Source: Hyphomicrobiales bacterium
GTDB lineage: Bacteria; Pseudomonadota; Alphaproteobacteria; Rhizobiales; Beijerinckiaceae
DNA length: 64,000 nucleotides
Reading direction: 5' to 3'
Assembly: GCA_947454055.1 (NCBI GenBank)
Contig: CANGIS010000008.1
Location: 1 to 64,000 of the forward strand
Part shown: one piece after another, positions 30,965 to 55,023 of the stretch
Numbering within the stretch: position 1 is the stretch's first letter
Layout: every line of letters begins with the position of its first letter
Notes under the pieces: generated by a model
The model's database searches: none
Told to the model about the DNA's origin: nothing
What the model saw: only the letters and a program-made list of their open reading frames with translations
Position numbers and translations under genes: made by a program

Positions 30965-30993
30965 TTGCAGAACACATAGAGAACAGATAGGTT
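30965..30993 (+). promoter_or_regulatory. lexA promoter with LexA (SOS) box
   Basis: -35 TTGCAG (30965-30970), 17-bp spacer, -10 TAGGTT (30988-30993). The spacer contains GAAC-ACATAGA-GAAC (30970-30984), the alphaproteobacterial LexA box (GTTC-N7-GTTC on the other strand). LexA would thus repress its own gene. A short leader hairpin, AGCCCCGA-G-TCGGGGCT (31011-31027), follows. Confidence 0.85.
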
Positions 30994-31049
30994 TGTTCAT
31001 CTTTTGTTTTAGCCCCGAGTCGGGGCTGAAGAACGGAGCGAACCGCCTA

Positions 31050-31748
31050 ATGTTGACCCGCAAACAAATCGAGCTTCTCCGTTTTATCCAGGACAGTCTG
31101 GCGCGGGATGGTGTGCCGCCCTCTTTCGATGAAATGAAGGATGCGTTGGATTTGAAGTCAAAATCCGGCATTCACCGCTTGATTACCGCGCTGGAAGAGC
31201 GCGGGTTTATCCGGCGTCTGGCCAATCGTGCCCGCGCGATCGAGGTGATCAAACTGCCCGAGCAGGCGCTGCCGAACCATACGCCGCGCGCCAAATTCAA
31301 CCCGAGCGTGATTGAAGGCGACCTCGGCCGTATTCGGCCGAGTGCGGCCAATGATGCGCCGCCTTTCGTGTCGATCCCCGTGATGGGCCGGATTGCGGCA
31401 GGAACACCCATTTCGGCGATTCAGTCGCGCAGCCACACGATCGGGATGCCACCGGACATGCTGTCGAGCGGGGACCATTACGCGCTTGAAGTCCGCGGCG
31501 ATTCGATGATCGAGGCCGGCATTTTTGATGGCGACACGGTGATCATCAAGCGGCAGGAAACGGCGGACACGGGCGATATTGTGGTGGCGTTAATTGATGA
31601 TGAGGAAGCAACCTTGAAGCGGTTGCGCCGTCGCGGTTCGTCGATTGCCCTTGAAGCGGCCAATCCGGCCTATGAAACCCGCGTTTTGGGACCCGATCGC
31701 GTGCGTATTCAAGGTAAACTCGTCAGCCTGATGCGCCGTTACCACTAA
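31050..31748 (+). CDS. lexA: LexA SOS repressor
   Basis: Repressor of DNA-damage genes, inactivated by RecA-stimulated self-cleavage. The 232-residue protein has an N-terminal winged helix ([40 protein letters not shown]), a cleavage site at A117-G118 (GRIAAGTP), the nucleophile S152 ([14 protein letters not shown]) and the Lys base K190 ([10 protein letters not shown]). The ORF is open upstream, but the ATG at 31050 follows the promoter. Its box type matches the one at 54243-54257. Confidence 0.97.
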
Positions 31749-50563: not shown

Positions 50564-53500
50564 TCAGCCATGCTCTACAGCCACAACCCCCGGAACGGTT
50601 CGGATCAGCCCCGCCATTTGGGGTGTGGCGCGGAAACCGCCCGCCAATTTCATTTCGACCTCCCGCATACCGCCGTCAATCGGCAACACGATCAGCACCT
50701 CGCCGTCGCCACGGTCCTTCAGCAAATCGGACAGAGCCGGCATCGGGGAAGCGTCGGCAACGGTGATGCGCAGTGAACTCGGTAACCGGGACGCCGCGCG
50801 CTCGAGCGGTTCGGCCGACTGGATGCGGATGCGCACATCCTCGCCCTCGACCTGCGCCTGAACGATCAGGACGACCGCATGCCCCGGCTCCAGCACATCG
50901 CGGAACTGGTTCAGTCCTTCCTGGAAAATGATCGATTCAAAATGTCCGGTCTGGTCGGAGAGCGCAAAAATACCCATTTTGCTGCCCGATTTCGTCCGCC
51001 GCTCACTGCGATCAAGCACCGTTGCCGCCAATTTGCCCACCGTTGCGCCGCTGCGGGCCGCACGCGCAAATTCCGTATAGCTCTGCACCTTGAGGCGCTT
51101 CAGGATACCCGCATAATCATCCAGCGGATGGCCCGAGAGAAAAAAGCCGATCGCATCATATTCGCGCTGCAACCGTTCAGAGGCCTGCCATGGCGAATGG
51201 GGCGGCACCCGCAATGCCTCGGGCTCGCCCAACCCGCCGAAAATATCGCCCTGTCCCGCCATCGCCTCTTCTTGCGACCGGTTGGCCATTCCCATAATGA
51301 CATCCACCGCCGCAAAGCATTTGGCACGATCCTTCTCGATTTCATCGAGCGCGCCGGCCGCGATCAAACTTTCCAGCGTCTTTTTGTTGAACACACGCGG
51401 GTTGATCCGCCGCGCTAGATCTCCCAGATCGCGGAACTTCATATCGCCCCGCGCGGCCACCAGACTTTCGACGGCTTGGGCACCAACCCCCTTAATGGCT
51501 GCCAGCGCATAGCGAATCGACAGCTGGCCATCATGGTCCTGATGCACCTCGAAGGTGACGCCCGATTGATTGACGGAGGGCGGATCGACCCGAAACCCGA
51601 GACGCTGCGCTTCCCGCCGAAACTCCGAGAGCTTATCGGTATTCGACATATCGAGGGTCATGGACGCGGCCAGAAACTCGACCGGAAAATTCGCCTTCAG
51701 ATAGGCGGTTTGGTAGGCAACCAAGGCATAGGCCGCAGCATGGCTCTTGTTGAAGCCGTAATCGGCAAATTTCGCCAAGAGATCGAAGATCGTATCCGCA
51801 ATCGACGTTTCCAACCCGCGCTCAACCGCGCCCGACACGAAACGTTCGCGCTGGGCATCCATCTCGGCCTTGATCTTCTTTCCCATCGCGCGGCGCAGCA
51901 GATCGGCTTCACCCAGCGAGTAGCCGGACAGGATCTGGGCGATCTGCATCACCTGTTCTTGATAAATGATAACGCCGTGGGTTTCTTTAAGCGAAACCTC
52001 CAGTTTCGGGTGAAGATATTCCGGCACTTCATGGCCGTTTTTGCGCGCATTATAGACCGGAATATTCGCCATCGGGCCCGGACGGTAGAGCGCCACGAGA
52101 GCGATAATGTCCTCAAAGCGATCCGCCCGCATATCGGCAAGCGCCTTGCGCATGCCCGCACTTTCAAGCTGGAATACGCCGACGGTCTCGCCCCGCCCGA
52201 GCATGTCAAAGGTGCGGCTGTCGTCGAGCGGAATCGAGTCGAGATCGACCGTAATCCCGCGGGCACGGATCAGCTCAACGGCCTTTTGCAAAACGGTCAG
52301 GGTTTTGAGCCCCAAAAAGTCGAATTTGACGAGGCCCGCGGGCTCGACCCATTTCATATTGAATTGGGTCACCAGCATATCGGACTTCGGATCGCGGTAG
52401 AGCGGAACCAATTGCTCCAGCGGCCGATCCCCGATCACCACGCCCGCGGCATGGGTCGACGCGTGGCGGTGCAGCCCTTCCAGAACAAGTGCGATATCGA
52501 GCAAACGCCGAACGGTCGGGTCTTCGTCGGCGGCCTGCCGCAACCTGACCTCGGTTGAAATCGCCTGTTCAAGCGTCACCGGATTGGCGGGATTTTGTGG
52601 CACGAGCTTGGTCAGCTTGTCGACCTGGCCATAGGGCAATTCCAAAACGCGCCCCACATCGCGCAGCACCCCGCGCGCTTGCAGCGTGCCGAATGTGATG
52701 ATCTGCGCCACCCGATCCGCGCCATATTTGCGCTGGACATAGCGAATGACCTCGTCGCGACGGTCCTGGCAAAAATCAATATCGAAATCCGGCATCGACA
52801 CGCGGTCCGGATTGAGAAAGCGCTCGAACAGCAGACCAAACCGCAAGGGATCAAGATCGGTAATCGTGGTCGCATAGGCGACAAGCGATCCTGCACCCGA
52901 TCCACGCCCCGGCCCTACCGGAATACCCTGCGCTTTGGCCCAGCGGATAAAATCGGCAACGATCAGAAAATAGCCCGGATATTTCATCCGCTCGATGACG
53001 GACAGTTCGAAATCGAGCCTTTTTTCGTATTCCCCGACGCTCAAGCCTTCCGCCGGTCCGTGCGCCTTCAACCGCGCGGCCAAGCCAGCGACCGCCAATT
53101 CGCGCAGAGCAATGGCTTCATCGGTTGGGACATCCTGCTCGCCAACGGTAAAATTCGGCAAAATCGGTTTGCGGGTCTGGGGACGGAAGGAACACCGCAG
53201 CGCAATCTCAATCGTATTGGTGAGCGCCTCGGGCAAATCGGCAAAGAGCTTGCGCATCGCGGCGCGCGATTTGAAATCATGTTCTTGCGTGACGCGGCGC
53301 CGTTCGGGATCGGAAACCAGACGCCCCTCGGCAATGGCCAACAACGCATCATGGGCGGCATAGGAATCAGGTTTGGCGAAATAGGCCTCATTGGTCGCCA
53401 CCAACGGCACGCCATGCGCATAGGCCAGTTCAATCAGTTGCCCTTCAACGGCGGTTTCATCCGCCGTGCCATGCCGCTGCAGCTCGATATAGAGCCGGTC

Positions 53501-54025
53501 GCCAAAAAGCTGCATCAACCGCTGGAGCCGTGTTTCGGCCAATTCCCGCTGGCCAGACACCAAGGCCCGATCAACCGGACCTTTCGGGCCACCCGTCAAC
53601 GCGATCAATCCGTCGGAAGCGGCCAGCAAGGTCTCGAAATGCACATGCGGCGTTTCCCCCGTCTCGGGGGAAAGATAGGCTAGCGACGACAGCTTCATGA
53701 GATTGTCGTAGCCCGCCTCGGCAGCAGCCAACAGCACCACCGACGGAAAGACCGCATGCACCGCCACCGGACGACCCGAAATCTGGTCCTGCATGTCGAG
53801 GGCAAGCTCTACCCCCGTGATCGGCTGGATACCCGCACCCGCGAGCTTCTCCGAGAATTCGAGTGCGCCAAAGAGATTATTGGTATCGGTAAGCGCCAAG
53901 GCCGGCATCCGGTCTTTGGTCGCGAGCTTTTTGAGCTCGTCGATCTTTAGCGCGCCCTCGAGCAATGAGAAGGACGAATGGACATGGAGATGCACAAACC
54001 CGACCTCCTCCAAAATCCGACTCAT
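50564..54025 (-). CDS. dnaE: DNA polymerase III alpha subunit
   Basis: Replicative polymerase. The 1153-residue protein starts with a PHP domain ([26 protein letters not shown]), then the C-family polymerase core with catalytic Asp in [46 protein letters not shown] and [13 protein letters not shown], an HhH region, and an OB-fold near the C-terminus. The ATG at 54025 has AGGGGG upstream. The in-frame extension to 54136 would run through the stop region of the 30-codon gene and is rejected. With no terminator between the two, dnaE is probably read from the SOS promoter at 54236-54265 and perhaps others. Confidence 0.96.
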
Positions 54026-54114
54026 CTCAGCCCCCTTGTTTCGCCTGTTTCTTTCATGCCCTGCAAGGGCAATCGCAGGCAAGCGGGGAGTGATCGGCCT
54101 TAAGTGGATAAAAT

Positions 54115-54207
54115 TCAGATAAACACGCTCGACCAAGCGTAGATGGTGCCGAGAAAGGCGGTGAGCACTGCGAGTTCGGTAACGTCTTCAACGAGTGAGA
54201 GAAGCAT
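54115..54207 (-). CDS. SOS-controlled 30-residue membrane miniprotein, SidA-like
   Basis: ATG at 54207-54205, TGA at 54117-54115, GGAGG five or six bases upstream. The 30-residue product begins MLLSLVEDVTELAV and has an uncharged hydrophobic stretch from residue 12 to the end (LTAFLGTIYAWSSVFI), so it should form one membrane span with a short acidic N-terminus. A promoter with a perfect LexA box lies just upstream. Caulobacter SidA is a 29-residue, single-span, SOS-induced inhibitor of division acting on FtsW/FtsN; size, topology and control match, and I recall sidA near dnaE there, unverified. Homology is not proven, as the sequence is too short. Confidence 0.7.
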   Translation of the reverse strand: MLLSLVEDVTELAVLTAFLGTIYAWSSVFI

Positions 54208-54235
54208 GGGAACCTCCGTCCGATTGCGATGATAG

Positions 54236-54265
54236 AGTATATGTTCACGTTTTGTTCTATTGCAA
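54236..54265 (-). promoter_or_regulatory. SOS promoter: LexA box inside the spacer, upstream of the miniprotein and dnaE
   Basis: Minus strand: -35 TTGCAA (54265-54260), 18-bp spacer, -10 TATACT (54241-54236). The LexA box GAAC-AAAACGT-GAAC fills 54257-54243, between the two boxes. It has the same orientation and place as the box in the lexA promoter. Bound LexA would block polymerase; DNA damage would release it. The start point should be near 54229, about 22 nt before the ATG. Confidence 0.85.
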
Positions 54266-54315
54266 GACGAAAGTGAAAACACGCCATTCGGTGTATCGAC
54301 GAGGTTAATAAATTC

Positions 54316-55023
54316 TTAATTTAATTCGACGACGAGGCCGTCCCGAATGGTCACGCGGCGATCCATTCGCGCGGCCAGATCGAGATTATGGGTGGCAATC
54401 AACGCCGCAAGGCCTGTGACTTTGACCAGCGAGAGCAGCGTTTCAAACACCCTGTTCGAGGTCTCGGGATCGAGGTTTCCGGTAGGCTCATCGGCGAGCA
54501 GGACGCGGGGGCGATTGGCCACAGCGCGCGCGATGGCAACACGCTGCTGCTCGCCGCCGGAAAGCTCGGCGGGGCGGTGGGTCAAGCGTTCGCCAAGACC
54601 AAGATAACGCAAAAGGTCAACCGAGCGCGTCCGTGCCTCGTCCTTATCCAGTCCCGTGATCATCTGCGGCAGCATCACATTTTCAAGCGCCGTGAATTCC
54701 GGCAGTAAATGATGGGCCTGATAAACGAAGCCCAGCTCGTTACGGCGAATGGCGGTACGCTCTTTATCCGGCAGTGCCATGGTCGGGTGGCCACTAATAT
54801 AAATCTCGCCGGCATCGGGCCGCTCCAGCAATCCGGCAAGCTGCAACAGCGTCGATTTTCCTGTTCCCGAGGGGGCCACCAAGGCGACCGATTGTCCGGG
54901 CCACACCGCCAGATCGGCCCCTTTGATGATGTTGAGCGTCTGCTCGGCATCGACAAAGCGACGCTCCACCTTCCACAGGAAGAGAACGGGATCGGCTGGC
55001 TTTTGGATGGCGCTATCGGTCAT
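54316..55023 (-). CDS. lolD: LolD, ATPase of the lipoprotein-releasing ABC transporter
   Basis: Drives release of outer-membrane lipoproteins from the inner membrane. The 235 residues show Walker [12 protein letters not shown], signature [14 protein letters not shown], Walker [16 protein letters not shown] and the switch His in [11 protein letters not shown]. It overlaps lolC by 4 bp. The gap between its stop and the SOS promoter has no clear terminator. Confidence 0.96.

Follow-up and report, generated by a model that had tools for sequence, protein, structure and literature searches.

The locus considered here raises the question of whether a reading frame of only 30 codons, located upstream of dnaE in a 64,000-nucleotide stretch of Hyphomicrobiales DNA (the whole of which is referred to below as the window), is a gene at all and, if it is, whether its product is a counterpart of SidA, the 29-residue SOS-induced inner-membrane protein that acts on FtsW (PMC4211646).

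A short frame behind a LexA-type promoter

The frame opens with an ATG codon at position 54207 and closes with a TGA codon at 54115-54117; the peptide read from it is MLLSLVEDVTELAVLTAFLGTIYAWSSVFI. A consensus search of positions 53900-54400 retrieved a single promoter-like site, TTGCAA and TATACT with 18 nt between them, and 15 of the 18 spacer bases are covered by an exact GAAC-N7-GAAC box, GAACAAAACGTGAAC. The sequence-only reading had listed the 30-codon frame, a GGAGG ribosome-binding site, the two hexamers with their spacing and the perfect box in the spacer; upon re-reading, every one of these details was correct. The AF2 model of the peptide, obtained for the lone 30-mer and silent as to a partner, is a single helix comprising residues 2-29 (pLDDT 95), and the product is predicted to be a single-span membrane protein. 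None of the Pfam and NCBIfam models matched the peptide, and the earlier suggestion that the frame may be unannotated is borne out to that extent. A search of a plasmid collection yielded no worthwhile match.

Features of the locus are collected in Table 1. The start codon of dnaE, at 54025, is 89 nt downstream of the frame, with no strong terminator in between; the lone terminator-like stem on this strand (54141-54124) is weak and is located inside the frame. Across the class, dnaE is the recurrent neighbour. A lolD-like gene is the upstream neighbour in this bacterial family, and the C-terminal motif of lolD was found upstream in many same-family loci.

Table 1. Positions of the frame, its control elements and related genes in the window
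Feature	Position	Strand	Basis or remark
Second exact GAAC-N7-GAAC box, the sole other in the window	30970..30984	+	Precedes lexA
lexA, predicted repressor of the small frame	31050..31745	+	TIGR00498, 179 bits (cut-off 110.95); Pfam LexA_DNA_bind, Peptidase_S24
dnaE, DNA polymerase III alpha subunit	50564..54025	-	NF004226, 1463 bits (cut-off 1002)
SidA-like small frame	54115..54207	-	30 codons and a stop codon; predicted to span the membrane as one helix
GGAGG ribosome-binding site	54213..54217	-	Direct reading; kept in nearly all same-genus relatives
-10 hexamer TATACT	54236..54241	-	Consensus promoter search
Putative LexA box, exact GAAC-N7-GAAC	54243..54257	-	Within the promoter spacer; kept across relatives
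-35 hexamer TTGCAA	54260..54265	-	Consensus promoter search; TTG core kept in congeners
lolD-like ABC transporter ATPase	54316..55023	-	TIGR02211 best match, 239 bits, below the cut-off of 307.75

Two exact GAAC-N7-GAAC copies were seen in the window against 1.9 expected. The whole genome contains 56, mostly due to chance, and the reversed control motif outnumbers the true one, so genome-wide counting of boxes was uninformative and was rejected as evidence. Since an exact box would turn up in 64 kb by chance alone, the case has to rest on comparison: it is the position and the conservation of the box that exceed chance, and not its mere presence. In the same genome, exact copies with an A/T-rich spacer precede recA, an imuA-like gene and rmuC, and a further copy lies between ssb and uvrA. 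Because these genes, and lexA in the window, carry the motif upstream, GAAC-N7-GAAC appears to be the operator that LexA binds in this organism, and the motif on which the sequence-only reading had based SOS control is thus the host's own.

Upstream of lexA, a near copy with one mismatch, AAACAAAAGATGAAC, is present on the minus strand (30995-31009) beside the exact box; with both boxes in front of it, lexA is likely autoregulated. On contig 9 of the same genome, the box GAACAAAAGATGAAC is flanked by rmuC and, in divergent orientation, a deformylase-like gene, so that one LexA site may serve both. On contig 19, GAACATTAAGAGAAC is found between two divergent genes without confirmed function, which are candidates for further SOS targets.

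Conservation of the frame and spread of the arrangement

The frame is present once in each of 12 same-genus genomes (its own included), the other 11 copies being 54-93% identical to it. When 11 same-genus frames of equal length were compared, variable sites at codon positions 1, 2 and 3 numbered 10, 4 and 27 of 30, respectively. Judged from this alignment, the pattern is a signature of protein-level selection, and the frame is a real gene. Residues L12 and F18 are invariant. Upstream of the frame, the CTTG and GAACAAAA...GAACA elements are fixed among the congeners compared, with the same core and the same spacing, while the flanking bases diverge. Weaker profile matches come from other genera of the family; where the locus was read, most of them fall ca. 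200-300 nt before dnaE, and in same-family loci the box is generally ca. 50 nt from the start codon. The sequence-only reading had named loss of the frame and of its membrane span from the lolD-dnaE gap of relatives as an outcome that would speak against it; both are kept.

We searched 169 dnaE-upstream regions for a box with at most one mismatch followed within 25-75 nt by a frame of 24-40 codons, itself within 600 nt of dnaE, preceded by a Shine-Dalgarno-like site and encoding a hydrophobic span (Kyte-Doolittle value of at least 1.2 over 17 residues). The arrangement was retrieved from 44 of 46 Caulobacteraceae, from 5 of the 6 genomes of the window's own family, from 31 of 56 genomes of other families of its order and from 7 of 61 genomes of other orders; the sample was spread evenly over families, and these counts are not frequencies in nature. 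In total, 87 regions matched, compared to none on the opposite strand in the same 169 regions and almost none in shuffled sequence. Many members of the class are without the arrangement. Two genomes of the order that the rule missed (G458 and G500) have a SidA-like frame 700-800 nt before dnaE, as opposed to ca. 250 nt in their congeners, indicating that other sequence came between the frame and dnaE. In another genome missed by the rule (G614), a weaker match to the frame is located further upstream of dnaE.

Relation to Caulobacter SidA

In order to find SidA itself, we relied on the offset between CC and CCNA gene numbers, which, judging from other gene pairs, would be ca. 61 to 83 in that part of the Caulobacter chromosome. 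With such an offset, CC1926, the dnaE locus (PMC1839093), would adjoin CCNA_02004, the sidA locus (PMC10769358), and the dnaE neighbourhood was therefore read in Caulobacteraceae. A PopZ query run against a single genome of each family failed to locate Caulobacter, but the CtrA of one family (f69) was closest to Caulobacter CtrA. Within f69, the PopZ of one genome, G708, is 100% identical to the C. crescentus PopZ query over 177 residues, and this match vouches for the query. The FtsW of G708 has Ala31, Phe145 and Ala246 where the literature places them, and a 29-codon frame is found behind LexA-type boxes directly before dnaE. By locus, size, boxes and the identity of the genome as judged from PopZ and FtsW, we take the product of this frame to be SidA.

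SidA and the window frame are alike in being encoded next to dnaE and on the same strand, in having a LexA-type box in the promoter, in size (29 and 30 residues, respectively) and in the possession of one span. The Leu and Phe anchors of SidA and the window peptide align (E-L-A-x-L-x-x-F against A-L-A-S-V-x-x-F). Unlike SidA, the window peptide has an acidic N-terminus, a trait of its clade, and it has neither the S-x3-F-V-W-M core nor the SidA arginines. The loci differ as well: in G708, there is no lolD directly upstream, and SidA promoters of Caulobacteraceae usually contain two or three tandem GAAC-N7-GAAC-like boxes spaced ca. 17 nt from one another, in many cases an exact copy together with a GAAT variant, whereas the window locus has a single box.

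A SidA profile did not recognize the window peptide (p 0.46, stratified shuffles), nor did a profile of the window genus recognize SidA; 30 diverged residues carry little information. Pairwise BLASTP of one intermediate sequence against one SidA returned nothing. Since the direct match is not significant, homology is claimed only through intermediates. A Hyphomicrobiales profile built without the window genus retrieved the window peptides with a z of ca. 7, and the same profile matched 36 of 37 SidA sequences at p<0.05 with the hydrophobicity pattern held fixed. Profile-to-profile comparison by hhalign aligned 26 columns, in the register expected, with a probability of 85% and an E value of 7e-6; the score was reached by none of 200 free and none of 200 hydrophobicity-preserving column permutations, and the reversed profile scored far below it. 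Taken with the common place and the common operator, this link makes common descent much likelier than convergence. The resemblance to SidA noticed in the sequence-only reading thus most probably reflects common descent, as the dnaE locus, LexA control, size, span and profile link via intermediates all suggest.

The genome under study encodes FtsW, in which the residue corresponding to A31 of Caulobacter FtsW is Leu. In Caulobacter FtsW, the A31K mutation specifically defeats SidA. The substitution, seen in a comparison of few sequences from which FtsW picks of two further genomes were left out as wrong frames, may reflect a joint change of peptide and target or an altered contact.

Proposed action, alternatives and meaning

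We consider it quite probable that the window frame encodes a diverged ortholog of SidA and that its product halts division when DNA is damaged, presumably via FtsW. Judging from the place of the box between the -35 and -10 elements, LexA bound to it would keep the promoter shut. LexA cleaves itself upon stimulation by RecA when DNA is damaged. At this locus, such cleavage would open the promoter, and the 30-residue peptide would be made. It would then insert into the inner membrane as one helix and, by analogy with SidA, bind the late divisome at FtsW, so that septal wall synthesis would stop until LexA recovers. In the published model, SidA holds FtsW/FtsI/FtsN inactive (PMC4211646), and by descent this is also the likeliest act of the window peptide. 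Caution as to the FtsW mechanism is called for because of the acidic N-terminus, the loss of the FVWM residues and the Leu at the A31 site.

Small damage-induced division inhibitors of other origin are known. DidA of Caulobacter, which is damage-induced but SOS-independent, DriD-controlled and 71 aa in length (PMC4211646), binds FtsN and, like the window peptide by analogy of function, is a small single-span protein of this sort. Since the window frame has 30 residues and a LexA-type box while DidA has ca. 71 and is SOS-independent, assignment to the DidA kind was ruled out; the locus is different as well. In Gram-positive bacteria, YneA was shown, and DivS, ChiZ and SosA were modelled, to contact FtsW (PMC13396833). 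These membrane proteins, which are likewise SOS-induced and arrest division at a late stage, are longer, belong to other phyla and have been described as unrelated to SidA (PMC4211646).

The peptide could instead be an SOS toxin of the TisB/DinQ kind, which would depolarize the membrane and slow growth without binding to the divisome. The E. coli peptides TisB and DinQ match it in size, single hydrophobic span and LexA control, and a target cannot be read from sequence. However, neither of them is known to be linked to dnaE or to occur beside it. DinQ is a LexA-controlled small single-span toxic peptide subject to antisense RNA control (PMC3567139), and this toxin-type action sets the pair apart from SidA. 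Position and profile link are shared by the window frame with SidA, for which an action on FtsW has been published (PMC4211646), and we find a toxin unlikely.

The notion that the frame is mainly a leader of dnaE, with the SOS promoter raising dnaE expression and the peptide being a by-product or a translational coupler, draws on the short distance to dnaE, the lack of a strong terminator and the weak stem within the frame. It fits poorly with conservation of the peptide itself (the 10/4/27 pattern, the invariant L12 and F18) and with the frame being 700-800 nt away from dnaE in G458 and G500, and we regard it as very improbable.

We give just as little credence to convergence, that is, to SOS peptides of separate origins that arose in the same gap and have only size and hydrophobicity in common. 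The direct comparisons of the window peptide with SidA, and BLASTP of the intermediate, would be in keeping with it, but the same place, the same operator, the gradation of the intermediates and a profile match that holds up when columns are permuted with hydrophobicity preserved are not. Finally, a functionless chance frame behind a chance box has next to no likelihood: the box alone could be expected by chance in 64 kb, but the codon-position bias, conservation across genera and the 0/169 matches in opposite-strand controls already contradict this.

No report of SidA outside Caulobacter was found in the open-access literature (subscription papers were mostly outside the search), and the class-wide sidA-dnaE arrangement is apparently undescribed and far wider than described in the literature examined. 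A dnaE-adjacent SidA homolog is now a concrete candidate in many genera, which can be found by a simple rule (GAAC-N7-GAAC and a frame of 24-40 codons before dnaE). The homologs make up a conserved gene family missed by protein-family libraries, probably owing to its small size, and provide naturally occurring variants with which the contact between SidA and FtsW can be mapped. On balance, we are inclined to view SidA, instead of being peculiar to Caulobacter, as an old alphaproteobacterial checkpoint that travels in the form of a sidA-dnaE module, in which one LexA promoter would tie together a block of division and, possibly, polymerase supply. In the Hyphomicrobiales branch, where the N-terminus is acidic and the FtsW contact site is altered, the manner or the place in which the peptide grips the divisome may have shifted.
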